This document shows, piece after piece, positions 544 through 24,205 of a stretch of 24,257 nt of DNA; the first letter of the stretch is position 1, and every line of letters begins with the position of its first letter. The position numbers and the translations under genes are program-made. The stretch is from a virus: IMG/VR virus record IMGVR_UViG_3300025598_000176, positions 1 through 24,257 of that record. The stretch is one strand, 5' to 3'. The notes under the pieces were generated by a model, which was not told the origin of the DNA, ran no database searches, and saw nothing but the letters and a program-made list of their open reading frames with translations.

Positions 544-1302
544 ATGTTAAAAGACCAAAGCCTACCTGAATTAGCAGTTACTATGGCACAAATTGCCAGT
601 GATGCATACAAAGACAATTATTTTGAAGTATTTGATAATCTTGGTTTTACCAAGCATAAGTTCCTTGATAATGAAGGCGCACAAGGTTATGTTGCAGCAA
701 GTAAAACAGAGGTAATTGTAAGTTGCCGTGGAACACAGCCAACACAACCAAATGATTTACTTGCTGATCTTGATACTATTCCTAAACGCCATGGTAAAGG
801 TTGGGTTCATGAAGGATTTCGTCGTGAAGCACGTAAGATTCTTGACCAAGTTTTAGATTGGGTTGCAAAGAACAAAGGCAAAGACATCTATGTTACTGGA
901 CATAGTTTAGGTGCTGCAATGGCACTTTATATCACACAAGAACTAGAATTTGCTGGTTATCCACCAGTAAAACTTATGACATTTGGTCAACCACGTCTTG
1001 GTAACGCAGATTATGTGGAAGGTATTGCAACTGAACATTATCGTTTTGTAAATTGTAACGATATGGTTACACATGTTCCACCAAGTGCGCTGCTATTCAA
1101 GCATCATGGCACATTATGCTATATCAACTTCTATGGCAATATCCGTCCGCTAAGTCGTTATCAACGATTTAAAGATAGCATGAGAGCGCATTGGCGTTGT
1201 TGGAAGAAAGGTCAGTTGTTTGATGGACTATATGACCACAACATGAGTCTTTACATTGATAAGTTAAAGAATATACGTGACACGGGACAAAGCATTAATT
1301 AA
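544..1302 (+). CDS. Class 3 (fungal lipase-type) alpha/beta-hydrolase, probable lipase
   Basis: This 252-residue protein matches the lipase class 3 fold motif by motif. It has an oxyanion-region strand IVSCRGTQ (58-65), VHEGF (88-92), and the nucleophile elbow TGHSLGAA with Ser121. These are followed by TFGQPRLGN (146-154), VNCNDMVTHVPP with Asp173 and, near the C-terminus, YDHNM with His232. Ser121-Asp173-His232 form a complete catalytic triad. Such enzymes hydrolyse ester bonds of acylglycerols or phospholipids. No signal peptide or membrane segment is visible, so it is cytoplasmic or carried in the virion. AGGAG lies 8 bases before the ATG. It is the only plus-strand gene in the left half and its stop overlaps that of the SleB-type hydrolase by three bases. 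Acting on membrane lipids during lysis or entry is an inference; the substrate is unknown. Confidence 0.88.
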   Translation: MLKDQSLPELAVTMAQIASDAYKDNYFEVFDNLGFTKHKFLDNEGAQGYVAASKTEVIVSCRGTQPTQPNDLLADLDTIPKRHGKGWVHEGFRREARKILDQVLDWVAKNKGKDIYVTGHSLGAAMALYITQELEFAGYPPVKLMTFGQPRLGNADYVEGIATEHYRFVNCNDMVTHVPPSALLFKHHGTLCYINFYGNIRPLSRYQRFKDSMRAHWRCWKKGQLFDGLYDHNMSLYIDKLKNIRDTGQSIN

Positions 1303-1817
1303 CGATCACCGTGACCATGGTGCATAATATAAGCATCTATATCAGTGTAAAAATAATGATGTCCTATTTTTACTAAAAAGATAAGATTTTTATCTTTGCG
1401 AGGTTTGTTGCTAAAATATAATGCACCAAGTGTTGGATCAAATTGGTAAGAAGAATATAGCACCATCATAGCTATGCTGTAAAAGTCAGCATTTTTTTCC
1501 ATATCTACTCGTGTAAATGGTGAACAAATAAATGTAAATTGGCAATCGCTGCCTTGCTTTTGATAAACAATTTTACATGCTGTGTTTGGAAATTTACCAC
1601 TATATAATCTGTTACGGATTACCCATGCAACAGCTACTTGTCCTTTCCAATCTTCGCCGCCAGCTTCGTTTTTAATAGCTTGAGCTACACACTCACTTGG
1701 AAACTCCAGTGTGGATTGTTTTTTACTAATCATATATTGTGATGGGAGTGGGTCTTGTGCCGCAACAGAATAACTCACTGTTAGGAATATTGCCAAAGAC
1801 ACTAAAAATTTTTTCAT
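1299..1817 (-). CDS. Exported SleB-type cell wall hydrolase (Hydrolase_2 family)
   Basis: I start this gene at the ATG at 1815-1817, giving 172 residues, because it opens with a signal peptide (MKKFLVSLAIFLTVSYSVAAQ); 18 more in-frame codons upstream would overlap the tmRNA. The mature domain has the SleB/CwlJ hallmarks: CVAQAIKNEAGG with the presumed catalytic Glu, GQVAVAWVIRNRL, FPNTACKIVYQKQG, CQFTF, GALYFSN, and a terminal IGHHYFYTD. Enzymes of this family cleave peptidoglycan glycan strands, so with Sec export this is a candidate signal-type endolysin. The Shine-Dalgarno is poor: GTGGGG ends only two bases before the ATG and lies in a hairpin (1821-1838). No promoter of its own is visible, so it is probably transcribed with the tmRNA upstream. 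Confidence 0.85.
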   Translation of the reverse strand: MKKFLVSLAIFLTVSYSVAAQDPLPSQYMISKKQSTLEFPSECVAQAIKNEAGGEDWKGQVAVAWVIRNRLYSGKFPNTACKIVYQKQGSDCQFTFICSPFTRVDMEKNADFYSIAMMVLYSSYQFDPTLGALYFSNKPRKDKNLIFLVKIGHHYFYTDIDAYIMHHGHGDR

Positions 1818-1820
1818 AGC

Positions 1821-1838
1821 CCCACATAAAAAAGTGGG
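1821..1838 (-). other. Hairpin between tmRNA and the hydrolase start codon
   Basis: CCCAC (1821-1825) and GTGGG (1834-1838) pair across an A/T loop. On the minus strand the stem covers the only G-rich sequence before the hydrolase ATG. It could mark the 3' end of the tmRNA coding piece, limit translation of the hydrolase, or both. It has no trailing U-run on the minus strand, so it is not a standard terminator. Confidence 0.45.
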
Positions 1839-1875
1839 CCCGTTCTGTTTCGAGGTGGAACCCATACCCAATGAA

Positions 1876-1920
1876 TTACGCTACAAGAGCGTGTTCAAAT
1901 GCGAAGTTATCGTTCGCTGC
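1876..1920 (-). other. tmRNA proteolysis tag reading frame, (A)ANDNFAFEHALVA-stop
   Basis: Fifteen codons from GCA (1920-1918) to TAA (1878-1876) encode AANDNFAFEHALVA. Resume could be at GCA or the following GCG; by analogy with known tags the encoded peptide is probably ANDNFAFEHALVA, added after the charged alanine. ANDNFA is the alphaproteobacterial tag start. The C-terminal ALVA is close to the usual ALAA and fits ClpX recognition of a small hydrophobic end. Confidence 0.9.
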
Positions 1921-2002
1921 GTTTACTTTTTTTTGGTCTATAAAGCAACCAACCTACTATCTACTTCAACCCTTTCAACGTCAATCGATCCCTTGCTGGC
2001 CC

Positions 2003-2069
2003 AACAAAGATACATTGGTCGATGCGCTCTAGTTATCCCTTTATCGCTATTAGGGAACCAATGTATCTA
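2003..2069 (-). other. Intervening loop of the permuted tmRNA precursor, with 12-bp inverted repeat
   Basis: Between the CCA end of the acceptor piece and the 5' end of the coding piece lie 67 bases. AGATACATTGGT (2008-2019) and ACCAATGTATCT (2057-2068) are perfect inverted repeats that extend the acceptor stem, and a smaller TCCCT/AGGGA stem (2036-2040/2052-2056) lies inside. In known permuted tmRNAs this loop is excised, with RNase P making the 5' end of the coding piece; the base before 2002 is the expected cut. Confidence 0.85.
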
Positions 2070-2136
2070 TGGTGGACCAGGAGGCAGTCGAAGCCTCGTC
2101 TTGCCCATCTATTAGTTGCTATCAACGATAGTATAT

Positions 2137-2144
2137 TATTTATA
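2137..2144 (-). promoter_or_regulatory. T4-type late promoter TATAAATA for the tmRNA
   Basis: The minus strand carries the exact T4 late promoter octamer TATAAATA. A start five to seven bases downstream (about 2131) falls just before the segment needed for the acceptor piece helix. This suggests the tmRNA is made late, by polymerase carrying a phage late sigma factor. Confidence 0.7.
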
Positions 2145-2156
2145 GCAGCTTTTTTA

Positions 2157-2621
2157 TTATTTGTCAAGAACAAAAGGATTTGTTTTTTTCATTACCGACT
2201 TTAATCTTCCTCGATTCCAGCCCGTTGGATAATCTTCTAATGAATATTGACCTTCAATATTTCCATCATTGAACCAATATCTTTTATTTCTAATTTTTCT
2301 TCCATCTATTCCTTTTGGGTATGGCGATGGAATACCTTTGTCAATAAATTTTCCTGTTGAAGATATTTTTGGTTTTTTTGCAATTTTTCTACCTTTTTTA
2401 CCGCCTTCAATCATTGCGATATAAGAACATTCATCGCTTGTAATTAAGCCAAGTAATCCTTTATATGCAATGAGGTCTTGCCAATGACCGTGCTGTTCAT
2501 ATAATATTCTATGTGCTTCTGCGTGTTCTTCTATTGAGAGTTCAATAATATTGGATGGGTCATTTGTACCACCCATATGTTTTGGTATAATGTGATGTTT
2601 ATGTTTAATTCTGCCGTTCAT
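2157..2621 (-). CDS. HNH family homing endonuclease, free-standing
   Basis: The 154-residue protein opens almost directly with an HNH fold. HHIIP (9-13) is followed by a GGTNDPSN loop with Asn24, then a helix with H33 and H37, the typical phage HNH layout. The C-terminal half is basic and contains GRKIRNKRYWFNDG, plausibly a DNA-binding segment. Such proteins nick or cut a specific site and spread by gene conversion, often into neighbouring conserved genes. It lies between the tmRNA and the baseplate lysozyme gene, so either could be its target. There is no Shine-Dalgarno, and a CCTAAATA octamer ends only five bases before the ATG, fitting a leaderless late transcript. A shorter start is unlikely because the histidines lie so close to the N-terminus. 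Confidence 0.8.
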   Translation of the reverse strand: MNGRIKHKHHIIPKHMGGTNDPSNIIELSIEEHAEAHRILYEQHGHWQDLIAYKGLLGLITSDECSYIAMIEGGKKGRKIAKKPKISSTGKFIDKGIPSPYPKGIDGRKIRNKRYWFNDGNIEGQYSLEDYPTGWNRGRLKSVMKKTNPFVLDK

Positions 2622-9098: not shown

Positions 9099-9887
9099 TT
9101 AAAAAATATAACACCATTCAGACCATTTGTCAATTTTAGATAAACATCTATCTCTAACTTGTTTTGTAGATGACAAATTATAATGTTTAACTACTGCCGT
9201 CACTGTTGGAAATATTCCGTCTGGTGTTTTAATTTTTTTCTTTCCTTTTGTATTTTCTGGTTTTACCGTAGGTGTAATATTATCATTGTAGGACCACATA
9301 TAACCGTGAGCATTCATAAACTTTCCATCACAGGTATATTTTATATTACTTGGACTTTTAACTCCAATGGAACTGGCAGCATCGCACAAACTATCATATC
9401 TGGCAATTTTATTTCCACTTAAATCAAATTGATATACTGGTTTTTTTAACATTTTGTCTGCCCATTTATGCCATCCTTCAAATCTTCTTTTATTTGAATC
9501 TGATGTATGTTTTTTTCCTAACATACCTTTTGGATGTTGTTTTTCTTTCCATTGATTTTTTAATCTTGCAATATTTTTTTCTTTAATAGTAGAATTATTG
9601 TTTATAAAATCAAAACCTCCACCTGCTTGTTGTTTCATATTGTAAAAATTTTCATTAGATGCTGCCTTATATAAGTCCAGATAATATTGTTCTCTTTCTA
9701 ACAGTTTTTCTTTTTCAACAATTTCTAATATTACTCTTTCAAAAGAATCAATACTATATTTTTTAACTGCTCTCTTAAATGCAACTCCACTCCCAAGATA
9801 GCCATCATCTTGTTCTCCGAGATGGCTACCTATATATTTTTTACCATTTATCTTATTTGTCCATTCATAAATGAATCCAGTTGCCAT
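9099..9887 (-). CDS. GIY-YIG homing endonuclease with NUMOD motifs, between nrdA and nrdB
   Basis: The 262-residue protein has an N-terminal GIY-YIG domain: FIYEW (5-9), YIGSH (18-22), GYLGSG (29-34) and EREQYY with the catalytic Glu66. Two DNA-binding modules follow. One is a NUMOD3-like segment (HPKGMLGKKHTSDSNKR, 118-134); the other is a NUMOD1-like segment (KPVYQFDLSGNKIARYDSL, 149-167) ending in GYMWSY. A basic linker and another helix-turn-helix-like tail complete it. This is the SegA-type layout of free-standing phage homing endonucleases. It occupies the nrdA-nrdB gap, where T4 carries MobE, and probably cuts in a neighbouring nrd gene of unoccupied relatives. It has its own GATAAATA element and AAGGA ribosome site. 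Confidence 0.9.
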   Translation of the reverse strand: MATGFIYEWTNKINGKKYIGSHLGEQDDGYLGSGVAFKRAVKKYSIDSFERVILEIVEKEKLLEREQYYLDLYKAASNENFYNMKQQAGGGFDFINNNSTIKEKNIARLKNQWKEKQHPKGMLGKKHTSDSNKRRFEGWHKWADKMLKKPVYQFDLSGNKIARYDSLCDAASSIGVKSPSNIKYTCDGKFMNAHGYMWSYNDNITPTVKPENTKGKKKIKTPDGIFPTVTAVVKHYNLSSTKQVRDRCLSKIDKWSEWCYIF

Positions 9888-9907
9888 AGTTAAAATATCC
9901 TTTTAAC

Positions 9908-9915
9908 TATTTATC
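9908..9915 (-). promoter_or_regulatory. Late promoter-like octamer GATAAATA for the GIY-YIG gene
   Basis: The minus strand reads GATAAATA, 20 bases before the ATG at 9887, with AAAAGGA in between. It would give the endonuclease late expression separate from nrdA, as for several T4 homing endonucleases. Confidence 0.55.
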
Positions 9916-9931
9916 TATTACTTCAACACTT

Positions 9932-12238
9932 TTATATTTTACACGATTCGCAGTCGTCGTCATAATCTTTATTGGTTTCAAGTTCAGTCGTTGATGAATC
10001 TTCAACAAACTTGGCAACATTAATTTCACCTTGATTATCTTTTGTATTAAAATAATACAAAGTTTTAATTCCCAGCTTATAGCACATCAACAAATGACCA
10101 ATCATAACACTCATTGGAATCTTTTCATCTTCATAGAATGTTGGATTGTATGAAGTATTGGTTGAAATACTTTGGTCAATATATTTCTGTAGGATAGCAA
10201 CAAGTTTTAGATAACCTTCTGGTGACTTTTGGTCCCATAGCAATTCATACTTGTTCTTTAATTTACGGAACTCTGGCACGACTTGCTTCAACACGCCATG
10301 CTTGCTTTGCTTAACACTAATAAGGCTACGTGGTGGTTCAATGCCGTTTGTAGCATTAGCAACTTGTGCACTGGTTTCTGCTGGCATAAGTGCCATGAGT
10401 GTGCTATTGCGGATACCGTGTTCTTTTAGGCTTTCACGAAGTGATGCCCAATCCATGCGTTCAGTATGTGGAACAAGTTCATCAACTTCACGTTTATAGG
10501 TATCAATAGGTAGAATACCATTGCCATATTTGGTTTCGCTGTTCTTTGGTGCAGCACCCTTTTCAATGGCAAGTTGATTACTTGCACGAATAAGATAATA
10601 ACTCCATGCTTCTGCATATTCATCAACGAGTGCAAGTGCACGTGGGTCACTATATGACACATCATTCTTTGCTAGGAAGTATGCAAAGTTAATAATACCA
10701 ATACCAAGTGGACGACGATTCATAGTGCTTAATTGTGCTGCAATAACAGGATAGTTTTGATAATCAAGCAATTCATCAAGTCCACGAACTGCTAGGTCAC
10801 ACATGCGTTCAAAGTCTTTTGGTTCTTTAACATTGCCCCAATTGATAGCACTTAATGTGCAAAGACTAATTTCACCAGACTCATCAAAGATATGATTTAG
10901 TGGTTTTGTGGGTAGTGCAATTTCAGCACACAAATTGCTTTGCTTGATTGGCGCAACGCTTTCAACAAATGCACCGTGAGTATTTGCATGGTCAACATTC
11001 ATAAGATAAATGCGACCTGTATTCTTGCGTTCTTCCATAAACTGTGAGAATAAATCAATTGCTTTATAAGTTTTCTTGCGGATTTTTGTATTCTTTTCCG
11101 CTTTCTCATAAAGTTCTTTGAACTTGTCTTGGTCTTGGAAGAATGCTTCGTATAAGCCTGGCACATCACTTGGAGAGAAGCAAGTGATATCGCCGCCTTG
11201 GAGAAGACGCTCATACATTAATTTGTTAAATTGTACACCATAATCCATATGACGAACACGATTATCTTCTGTGCCTTTGTTATTCTTTAAAACTAACAAA
11301 TCTTCAATTTCATAGTGCCATAGCGGATAGTAAAGCGTAGCAGCACCATTGCGAACGCCACCTTGTGAACAACTGCGCACTGCACTTTGGAACAATTTAT
11401 AAAATGGAATAAGACCTGTATGGCTGGCGTCACCTTTGCGAATTGGTGAACCAATCGCACGAATAGATCCAGCACCAATACCAATGCCTGCTTTCTGACT
11501 TACATACTTTACAATAGCACTGCTTGTAGCATTAATGCTGTCAAGGCTATCATCAGTTTCAATCAAAACGCAACTGCTGAATTGACGCTGTGGTGTGCGG
11601 ACGCCAGCCATCACAGGAGTCGGTAAACTAATATCATGCTTACTAATAGCATCATAATAATCTTTTACATAACGTAGACGTGTTTCACTTGGATATTTGG
11701 AAAACAGTGTTGCAGCAATAAGTGCATAAGCAACTTGTGGTGTTTCCATAATTTGACCTGTAACACGGTTCTGCACAAGATACTTGCCACGTAGCTGTTC
11801 CATAGCAACATATGCAAGACTACAATCACGTTCATGGTCAACGAACTTGTTGATAGTATCCCATTCTTCTTCGCTATAATCTGTTAGCAGTGCAGGATCA
11901 TAAAATCCACTTGCAATATTCTTTTTAATAATATCAATTAGCGGCCATGGATGATAGTCACCATAAACTTCTTTGCGTAAGTGATAATTTACAAGACGAC
12001 CTGCGACATATTGGTAGTTTGGTGTTTCTTCGGAAATTAAATCAGCAGCAGCCTTGATCATAGTTTCCTGAATTTCAGTGGTTTTAATGTTATTATAAAA
12101 TTGAATTTGACTTCGTAGTTCTAGTTCACTTGCACTTACATTACTGATGTTTTCTGTTGCCCAGAATACTACTTTATGAAGTTTCTCAATATTCAATGGT
12201 TCTTTGCGACCATCACGTTTAATAACATTAATTGCCAT
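9932..12238 (-). CDS. nrdA: Ribonucleoside-diphosphate reductase large subunit, class Ia (alpha, R1)
   Basis: The 768-residue protein aligns end to end with E. coli NrdA. The N-terminal ATP-cone (about 1-90, VIKRDGRKEPLN) carries the allosteric activity site. Active-site residues are Cys223 (FSSCVL), Asn435, Cys437 and Glu439 (SNLCAEI), and Cys460 (SLCTLSAIN). The YY pair of the radical path lies in TLYYFNT near 735, and the C-terminal shuttle cysteines are in CESCKI. It makes dNDPs with NrdB and is re-reduced by glutaredoxin, encoded downstream. The ORF is continuous, with no intron or intein. Shine-Dalgarno GGAAAG precedes the ATG. It is the first gene of the nrd run; I saw no convincing promoter directly upstream. 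Confidence 0.97.
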   Translation of the reverse strand: MAINVIKRDGRKEPLNIEKLHKVVFWATENISNVSASELELRSQIQFYNNIKTTEIQETMIKAAADLISEETPNYQYVAGRLVNYHLRKEVYGDYHPWPLIDIIKKNIASGFYDPALLTDYSEEEWDTINKFVDHERDCSLAYVAMEQLRGKYLVQNRVTGQIMETPQVAYALIAATLFSKYPSETRLRYVKDYYDAISKHDISLPTPVMAGVRTPQRQFSSCVLIETDDSLDSINATSSAIVKYVSQKAGIGIGAGSIRAIGSPIRKGDASHTGLIPFYKLFQSAVRSCSQGGVRNGAATLYYPLWHYEIEDLLVLKNNKGTEDNRVRHMDYGVQFNKLMYERLLQGGDITCFSPSDVPGLYEAFFQDQDKFKELYEKAEKNTKIRKKTYKAIDLFSQFMEERKNTGRIYLMNVDHANTHGAFVESVAPIKQSNLCAEIALPTKPLNHIFDESGEISLCTLSAINWGNVKEPKDFERMCDLAVRGLDELLDYQNYPVIAAQLSTMNRRPLGIGIINFAYFLAKNDVSYSDPRALALVDEYAEAWSYYLIRASNQLAIEKGAAPKNSETKYGNGILPIDTYKREVDELVPHTERMDWASLRESLKEHGIRNSTLMALMPAETSAQVANATNGIEPPRSLISVKQSKHGVLKQVVPEFRKLKNKYELLWDQKSPEGYLKLVAILQKYIDQSISTNTSYNPTFYEDEKIPMSVMIGHLLMCYKLGIKTLYYFNTKDNQGEINVAKFVEDSSTTELETNKDYDDDCESCKI

Positions 12239-22451: not shown

Positions 22452-22501
22452 ACAACGTAAATATTCTATTATTGGCACATTTAAGGCACAAAGGGCAATC
22501 A

Positions 22502-24205
22502 ATGAAACTACCAGAAAATGCACAGGCACAATGCGAACAACTATTACGAGAATTTAGACGACAAATACCAGATGATGCGGCATATACTGACCGCCTTGTT
22601 GAAGAAATAGAAATCATCTTGGGTCTGCGATTTACAGAATACTTCCTACAAATCCGTGAAATATTAGACATGACTACTGACCTACCACACATGACTCGTG
22701 GTAGTGCAGGCAGTAGTCTTGTTTGTTGGGCGTTAGGAATTACAGATGTTGATCCTATAAAATGGGATATACCACTATCACGATTCTTAAATCCACACCG
22801 TGATGACTTACCAGACATTGACATAGACTATCCACATTGGGCACAAACCACAGTAATGGAACGTATATTCAAACGCTGGCCTGGTAAAAGTGCACGAATC
22901 AGTAACTATGTTACATTTAAAGAAAAAAGCGCCAAGCGTGAAGCAGCAAGACGCCTTGGTGCAAAAGGAAAATTACCACGCAACTTCAAATATGATGATC
23001 TTGACATTGACATAGGGGAAGCTATTCGTATTGAAAAGAAGTTGCTTGGTAAGAAACGAGCCATTAGCAAACATTGCGGTGGCATACTTGTGTTCAAACA
23101 TAATCTACCAAAGAGTTTAATAAATGCAGACAATCAAATCCTATTAGACAAACATGAAGTAGAAGACCTTGAACACTTAAAAGTTGATATACTTGCTAAT
23201 CGTGGGTTAAGTCAACTTTATGAGATAGAACCCAATATGGGGTTAGAAGATTATCCTGACTATGATGAAGCAACTATACAATTACTGTGTAATGGTGATG
23301 TGTTGGGAGTTACACAAGGTGAATCACCAGCAATGCGGCGATTGTTCCGTGCAATACAGCCAAAGTCACGCAGTGATTGTGTATTTGCAACGGCACTTAT
23401 ACGCCCTGTTGCAACTACTGGTCGTCAAAAAGCAAGTTTCTTCCATGATTGGACAGAACAACGGCTAGAAGAAAGCATTGTGTATGAAGATGATGCTATC
23501 AAAAAGATAAGCAAACTTATTGGTTGTGACATATATGAAGCAGATATGTATCGCCGTGCATTTGCCAAAAAGAATGAAGAAAAAGTTTATGAGTTTATGC
23601 ACCGCATGGGCACACATCCAAATAAAACTGAAATTATAGACGAACTATATCAGCTTGGCAACTTTGGATTATGCCGTGCACATGCTGTAAATCTTGGGCG
23701 ATTGATTTGGGCACTTGCATATCAAAAAGCACATAATCCAAAACCATTTTGGGCTGCATATCTTAAACATTGCGAAGGCAGCTATCGTCGTTGGGTTTAC
23801 AAGAATGAAGCCAAACGTGCTGGTTGGGATTTGCGTGAACTTGGATATAATTATAGCCTATTAAATGACCCTATATATGAATATAGAAAATATGGATGGT
23901 GGGGCGATGCCGATTTTTTACCAGGTTTTTATTGCAATAATCAGTATCTTGACCGTTTTGAATTTGCTGGTCTTGTTGCCAATGGTCGTGTATTCAAGGG
24001 AGAAGGCGGGAAGTATATCACCTTTCTTACCCTTGGTGTTGGTAACGGAAAATATATTGACTTATTGGTAAAAGGTCCAGTTGCATATCATGATTATGAT
24101 GTTGTATGCGGCGTAGGCAAAGTCAAAACAAGCAACGGCAGTCAGTATATTGAATGTCAAAATGTGCGCACATTAAAGCTAGAAAAGTTTAACTCTTCTG
24201 CTTAA
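22502..24205 (+). CDS. Miniature C-family DNA polymerase (DnaE-like), no PHP domain
   Basis: I choose ATG 22502, with AAAGGG seven bases upstream, over a TTG at 22472; the protein has 567 residues. It carries the DnaE palm and fingers: RGSAGSSLVCWALGITDVDP (66-85), PDIDIDY with catalytic Asp105 and Asp107, KHCGGILV (190-197), LKVDIL with the third Asp229, TQGESPAMRRLFRAIQP (271-287), and FGLCRAHAVNLG with a KAHNPKPFWAAYL helix (388-421). An OB-fold-like segment ends it (about 485-560). E. coli DnaE has about 1160 residues; the N-terminal PHP domain and the tau-binding end are missing, so proofreading by PHP is absent. It may replicate phage DNA or act as a repair/translesion polymerase. The 3' end overlaps a minus-strand gene tail to tail. 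Confidence 0.85.
   Translation: MKLPENAQAQCEQLLREFRRQIPDDAAYTDRLVEEIEIILGLRFTEYFLQIREILDMTTDLPHMTRGSAGSSLVCWALGITDVDPIKWDIPLSRFLNPHRDDLPDIDIDYPHWAQTTVMERIFKRWPGKSARISNYVTFKEKSAKREAARRLGAKGKLPRNFKYDDLDIDIGEAIRIEKKLLGKKRAISKHCGGILVFKHNLPKSLINADNQILLDKHEVEDLEHLKVDILANRGLSQLYEIEPNMGLEDYPDYDEATIQLLCNGDVLGVTQGESPAMRRLFRAIQPKSRSDCVFATALIRPVATTGRQKASFFHDWTEQRLEESIVYEDDAIKKISKLIGCDIYEADMYRRAFAKKNEEKVYEFMHRMGTHPNKTEIIDELYQLGNFGLCRAHAVNLGRLIWALAYQKAHNPKPFWAAYLKHCEGSYRRWVYKNEAKRAGWDLRELGYNYSLLNDPIYEYRKYGWWGDADFLPGFYCNNQYLDRFEFAGLVANGRVFKGEGGKYITFLTLGVGNGKYIDLLVKGPVAYHDYDVVCGVGKVKTSNGSQYIECQNVRTLKLEKFNSSA

Follow-up and report, generated by a model that had tools for sequence, protein, structure and literature searches.

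Comparative sequence analysis makes it highly likely that this locus is a working, phage-encoded, permuted tmRNA gene of the alpha type with a homing-endonuclease gene at its edge. The tmRNA itself belongs to a known class; the novel part is an HNH family tied to permuted tmRNA genes. We think it probable, with rather less assurance, that permuted tmRNA genes are a splice-free refuge for this specialised HNH family: the whole endonuclease gene would lie in a segment that is discarded, the ends of that segment (often the last HNH codons) would keep its closing helix, and the family would drive the exchange of tmRNA modules among phages. The member studied here sits just outside the tmRNA, with the tmRNA promoter within its frame. 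The arrangement opens to experiment the question of how selfish endonuclease genes carry translation genes from phage to phage, in parallel to SegB and phage tRNA genes. Throughout, the window is the whole stretch analysed, a complete virus record of 24,257 bases, and related loci carry L numbers.

A permuted tmRNA gene upstream of a cell wall hydrolase

The original prediction placed a phage-encoded, circularly permuted two-piece tmRNA at 1835-2144 on the minus strand, and both Rfam model RF04321 and ARAGORN match there. The prediction hinged on a match to a permuted tmRNA model; the whole of RF04321 (tmRNA_permuted) aligns to 2130-1876 with 78.5 bits (gathering score 47, E 8.8e-14). ARAGORN returns a single permuted tmRNA at 1785-2162 (-) with the tag AANDNFAFEHALVA, and the RF04321 match together with this tmRNA* call puts the acceptor piece, with its T-arm and CCA, 5' of the coding piece, as had been proposed. 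The model suggested as a check, RF01849 (alpha_tmRNA), gave a significant match (E 2e-12) that stays below its gathering score (48.0 vs 50 bits), implying that the gene is alpha-like but divergent; some relatives reach that threshold, for example L050 at 85.9 bits. Every checkable detail of the predicted identity (phage-encoded, permuted, two-piece, of alphaproteobacterial type) proved right. The features of the locus are as follows.

1299-1817, minus strand: gene for a cell wall hydrolase (Hydrolase_2), conserved neighbour on the downstream side of the tmRNA
1828-1833, minus strand: run of six T after the 3' hairpin, a possible terminator
1835-1864, minus strand: 3' hairpin, loop ACCUCGAAACAGAA
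1835-2002, minus strand: coding piece, with acceptor 5' strand GGGCCAG, D-loop, P2 5' strand, PK1-position hairpin, tag and 3' hairpin
1876-1920, minus strand: tag reading frame, AANDNFAFEHALVA and TAA; resume codon GCA at 1920 or GCG at 1917
1933-1952, minus strand: PK1-position hairpin, UUGGU/ACCAA
2003-2069, minus strand: intervening segment of 67 nt, closed by a 12-bp repeat
~2132-2070, minus strand: acceptor piece, with P2 3' strand, T-arm, acceptor 3' strand CTGGTCC, discriminator A and CCA at 2072-2070; its 5' end is placed from the promoter and P2
2137-2167, minus strand: promoter, with TTGACA at 2167-2162, a 17-nt spacer, TATAAATA at 2144-2137 and the TG of an extended -10
2157-2621, minus strand: HNH endonuclease gene, 154 aa, abutting the tmRNA, whose -35 box lies inside its last codons

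The structural details foreseen from the sequence were all recovered. The seven-base acceptor stem, CTGGTCC (2080-2074) with GGGCCAG (2002-1996), pairs 7/7, G3-U70 included. The perfect inverted repeat of 12 bp consists of AGATACATTGGT (2068-2057) and ACCAATGTATCT (2019-2008) and closes the intervening segment; this closing stem is retained and covaries in most relatives. The T-arm reads GAGGC-TTCGACT-GCCTC, its stem GAGGC/GCCTC pairing 5/5. The expected tag frame with its stop runs from 1920 to 1876 (-), and the tag is of the ordinary degradative type, with a resume alanine, a stop codon and a hydrophobic end. In the window and its relatives a TTGACA-17-TATAAATA promoter lies close to the start of the acceptor piece, and the run of six T is found in the window's family and absent from other phage groups. 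The tmRNA folds with an MFE z-score of -3.0, none of 200 shuffles being equally stable.

At the position of the pseudoknot PK1 the window is supported as having a hairpin. The stem there covaries among relatives (GGU/ACC, GGA/UCC, GAA/UUC, GAC/GUC); the second helix that a pseudoknot needs is not consistently possible among them. Read by eye, only about 12-20 nt separate P2 from the resume codon in the sisters L046, L049, L052 and L059 and in further phages including L003, L005, L006 and L028, which leaves no room for PK1. PK1 thus appears to be altogether absent from some phage permuted tmRNAs.

Conservation of the locus was assessed in 20 viral contigs selected solely for their match to the downstream cell wall hydrolase. 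A permuted tmRNA was detected by ARAGORN or Rfam directly upstream of the hydrolase gene in all 20; in L051 only the tag and 3' end of the tmRNA are present, the contig ending there. Among 16 distinct family sequences, standard pairs make up 97.3% of pair cells, compared with 81.9% in shuffles (maximum 84.9%), and both partners have changed in 22 pairs, where 300 shuffles gave 18 at most. The covarying stems are the acceptor, T and P2 stems. RNAalifold missed the outer P2 and the 3' stems of the family alignment owing to alignment shifts; the 3' stems, checked separately, average 7.1 bp vs 5.7 with shuffled partners, and the outer P2 was checked by eye. The 45 distinct viral tmRNAs have 14 different acceptor stems, each pairing 7/7 with G3-U70, a count that is illustrative and no test, since the scanner demands good pairing. 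At tag positions N, D, N, L, A and A the residue is mostly kept while the codons vary (AAC/AAT, GAT/GAC, GCA/GCG/GCT), and the stop codon is TAA or TGA depending on the relative; the middle residues of the tag differ from phage to phage. The conserved locus, the covarying stems and the synonymous variation of the tag lead us to conclude that the tmRNA is very probably functional.

The genes are also mosaic. The tRNA-like domain of the window is 100% identical to that of L048. For the intervening segment, identity is 97% with L050 and 62% with L048; for the 3' element, it is 93% with L046 and L052 and 67% with L048. L049 pairs an L046-type core with an L048-type 3' element. Phosso is the only named relative that has a short 3' element in common with the window. 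These module mosaics could be the trace of homing-driven conversion; ordinary recombination would leave the same. Overall, the phage two-piece tmRNAs of this uncultured group are not stray host copies: they form a class of genes that is conserved, under selection and recombining.

As predicted, the tmRNA lies among virion and nrd genes: a phage lysozyme protein, PAAR, glutaredoxin, NrdB, NrdA and a tail fibre are encoded upstream. A GIY-YIG/NUMOD1 endonuclease gene (9099-9887) has nrdB on one side and nrdA on the other, and a 99% identical copy occurs in L191. The DNA polymerase III alpha-like gene at 22472-24205 (+) has its best match, at 37% identity, in a 484-kb uncultured phage, which may point to a large genome. 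Other phage groups, too, have permuted tmRNA genes at the same loci as distant Hydrolase_2-like cell wall hydrolases (L119, L122-L124, L139, L155, L156, L017 and L038).

The isolates matched by window proteins are all distant. An alphaproteobacterial host is suggested by the alpha type of the tmRNA, though this is no proof, because Melnitz infects an OM43 gammaproteobacterium (PMC9004378). We did not find an SmpB gene in 12 related viral records, which include the complete 469-kb Phosso and are otherwise mostly fragments; the phage tmRNA very probably works with the SmpB of the host. A recent copy of a host gene was considered and rejected: the phage-type core pattern, an exact and hence insensitive query, gave two matches in 84,980 species genomes, a Desulfomonilaceae MAG and Larkinella knui. 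A plasmid search with a phage tmRNA as query gave no match.

An HNH family at permuted tmRNA genes

The gene abutting the tmRNA, on which the original prediction made no comment, belongs to a family whose members matched the PHROG homing endonuclease phrog_655 in 10 of 10 cases. The HNH motif residues are invariant in the family, with Pfam HNH scores near or under the cut-off. An AlphaFold model of the window protein (pLDDT 73.5) had no significant PDB match by Foldseek.

We then looked at where this family resides, using a search that started from the HNH family alone and keeping the best 80 of 564 loci, the closest part of a larger family. In all 17 of the closest relatives among these 80, the HNH gene is located within a permuted tmRNA's intervening segment and shares its strand. 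Five lower-ranked ones (L132, L133, L139, L179 and L189) bring such cases to 22 of the 80, and 32 of the 80 fetched loci contain a permuted tmRNA. The tmRNA, of alpha or beta type, lies beside the HNH gene in L129, L138, L141, L142, L144, L145, L155, L156, L167 and L188. By contrast, control loci fetched with the window's GIY-YIG endonuclease contained a permuted tmRNA in 0 of 31 cases, and reversed sequences in 0 of 80. A tree of 57 HNH proteins places the window protein in a clade with seven proteins from intervening segments and no others (support 98/99). More distant relatives, such as those of Synechococcus phages, are not at tmRNA genes, and most relatives of the window locus keep the tmRNA without an HNH gene. 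These comparisons suggest that the window HNH protein is probably a homing endonuclease recognising permuted tmRNA genes. Upstream of one HNH relative, in the viral contig L157, lies a manA RNA motif (RF01745, 1294-1468).

In phages of the L021 and L008 types, an intervening segment of about 490 nt is taken up by an HNH gene that is homologous to that of the window, with 59-64% identity. The first and last bases of filled segments pair over a mean of 9.7 bp, vs 5.2 with shuffled partners, implying that the precursor can still form the usual closing helix, around a loop that contains the reading frame. In most filled-segment types the 3' arm of this stem is formed by the last HNH codons, and in 9 of 11 types the leader carries TAAATA or TATAAATA in a hairpin before the start codon. 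Five of the 11 types (L121, L122, L125, L132 and L179) score below Rfam gathering and were recognised by the stem scanner, with readable tags and 3' loops. Occupied and empty alleles can be compared directly: the coding pieces of occupied L111 and empty L005, L014, L034 and L040 are 96-97% identical, with recognisable flanks, and the window's own locus offers a similar comparison, the window being occupied and L048 and L053 empty. The contigs are metagenomic, and the arrangements recur across independent samples.

A search of the open-licence literature for permuted tmRNA together with HNH found no paper. The filled segments suggest a niche for homing endonucleases that is apparently unreported, a stretch of precursor RNA taken out by ordinary tRNA processing. 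No self-splicing intron would be needed for such an insertion, because tmRNA maturation should remove the segment.

The window gene departs from this pattern: it lies outside the tmRNA, and its leader lacks a hairpin or clear ribosome-binding site, so it may be displaced or weakly expressed. Upstream of it, 2622-2666 contains two copies of TTCTGTCTATCCTAAA, like the left arm of the promoter hairpin in the HNH relatives within tmRNAs. We rejected TATAAATA as a late promoter in the window phage: the window holds two copies vs 3.6 expected, and a gp23 capsid gene was not found in the 130-kb relative G001, so that a T4-type late programme is not shown for this group. In L047 an HNH-like frame of a different kind (9286-10001) stands between the tmRNA and the hydrolase gene; endonuclease genes therefore occur on either side of the tmRNA locus.

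Proposed working and alternatives

The sequences themselves show the gene anatomy and its conservation, the covarying stems, the constraint on the tag codons, the HNH-tmRNA linkage and the module mosaics. The steps of tmRNA action proposed here, from processing through charging to tagging, follow what is known of tmRNAs as a family, and cleavage and homing are inferred. The TTGACA/TATAAATA promoter would start the precursor near 2132. RNase P and 3' trimming at the CCA would release the 67-nt intervening segment, leaving the acceptor and P2 helices to hold the acceptor and coding pieces together. Host AlaRS would charge the RNA via G3-U70, and host SmpB and EF-Tu would bring it to stalled ribosomes whose mRNA is cut or incomplete, where AANDNFAFEHALVA would be added and the product passed to host proteases. 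During infection, the phage RNA would top up host rescue while mRNA is being degraded; because the tag is of the ordinary degradative type, supplementing host rescue seems the simplest reading among the effects first suggested, which also included replacement of that rescue, a change in tagging and relief of stalling in late translation. For HNH relatives inside the intervening segment, the frame would do little harm, the segment being discarded on maturation. Cutting and repair would spread the endonuclease and segments of the tmRNA between co-infecting phages. That a tmRNA-tied endonuclease acts on a translation-rescue gene as SegB acts on tRNA genes is speculation.

Could the RNA instead work against the host? 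It might bind SmpB or AlaRS and block host trans-translation, as proposed for the RNA of mycobacteriophage DS6A, which consists of a tRNA-like domain only. Such phage RNA is a strong inhibitor of tmRNA (PMC4131195; PMC11915505), and the 12 related viral records in which phage SmpB was not found would fit a decoy; but the complete tag frame, the selection at codon level and the conserved 3' stem and P2 region would be superfluous for one, and we judge this quite improbable. We hold it to be unlikely, too, that the phage tag steers rescued proteins, or those of the host, towards degradation so that their amino acids are recycled, an idea suggested for Melnitz (PMC9004378): the middle of the tag does vary between phages, but its start and ends are of the ordinary bacterial type, and no special destination is visible.

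The HNH linkage and the mosaics raise the prospect that the tmRNA brings the phage no benefit and is maintained by spread through homing endonucleases. Most relatives, however, keep the tmRNA without the HNH gene, with its own promoter and a selected tag, and a mere passenger is in our view a poor prospect. Finally, tmRNA genes are common integration sites (PMC11915505, PMC4383910), and a piece of host ssrA might have been acquired by a temperate ancestor; a complete gene with its own promoter, held at one conserved place in 20 phage loci, and the absence of an integrase among the annotated window genes make such a remnant extremely improbable. A working phage tmRNA that supplements host rescue remains our preferred reading.

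Comparison with known systems

Phage two-piece tmRNAs are already known, Melnitz and Mosig being examples, and that of the window is not the first: tmRNA was found in 402 of 18,146 phage genomes, and of 53 two-piece forms counted by 2021, 50 are aquatic (PMC9004378). With the alphaproteobacterial two-piece tmRNA (RF01849; RF04321) the window gene shares the permuted order, an acceptor piece with T-arm and CCA, G3-U70, an ANDN-type tag and a 3' loop ending in AACAGAA. It differs in its RF01849 score (48.0 of 50 bits) and in having only a hairpin at the PK1 position, which is apparently empty in the sisters L046, L049, L052 and L059. Like the tmRNAs of OM43 phage Melnitz, Pelagibacter phage Mosig and other aquatic phages (PMC9004378), it is phage-encoded, permuted and of alpha type. 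Unlike them, it lies upstream of a cell wall hydrolase gene, with an HNH gene adjacent, in a different, uncultured phage group; a further difference is that the window gave no riboswitch match.

Two phages proved to carry unannotated permuted tmRNAs. That of Sinorhizobium phage Phosso (PV764938.1; L002, 7370-8059) scores 113 bits with RF04321, was missed by ARAGORN and has an intervening segment of 410 nt without a long reading frame. Erythrobacter phage vB_EliS-L02 (L110, 79-3350) has 23 tRNA genes and a permuted tmRNA with the tag VNDNDVVVARDEVRLAA; behind it lies a gene with the annotation proteasome subunit alpha/beta, an order in which a link between tagging and proteolysis is possible.

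Endonuclease genes in removed parts of tmRNA precursors also have a precedent: a tmRNA survey mentions LAGLIDADG genes housed in tmRNA group I introns and, for permuted intervening segments, a tRNA or a repeat but no endonuclease (PMC11915505). The relatives of the window HNH gene differ from these in lying in the intervening segment of a permuted gene, with tRNA-type processing and no intron, and in belonging to another endonuclease family.

The closest parallel in gene arrangement is T4 SegB and the free-standing seg and mob endonucleases (PMC2988022, PMC13096335), which likewise lie beside small RNA genes and carry the promoter of the next gene inside their frame. Such embedding is on record for T4 segG, among others, and has been suggested to help retention, and control by a late promoter plus hairpin is known for I-TevI, segB and mobE (PMC2988022); most HNH relatives in intervening segments similarly have a late-promoter motif in a hairpin ahead of the start codon. 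T4 SegB favours the inheritance of the phage tRNA region and, in T6, the amplification of a tRNA gene that counters the Septu defence (PMC2988022, PMC13096335). SegB, however, is a GIY-YIG enzyme linked to tRNA genes, whereas the family of the window is HNH and linked to permuted tmRNA genes.
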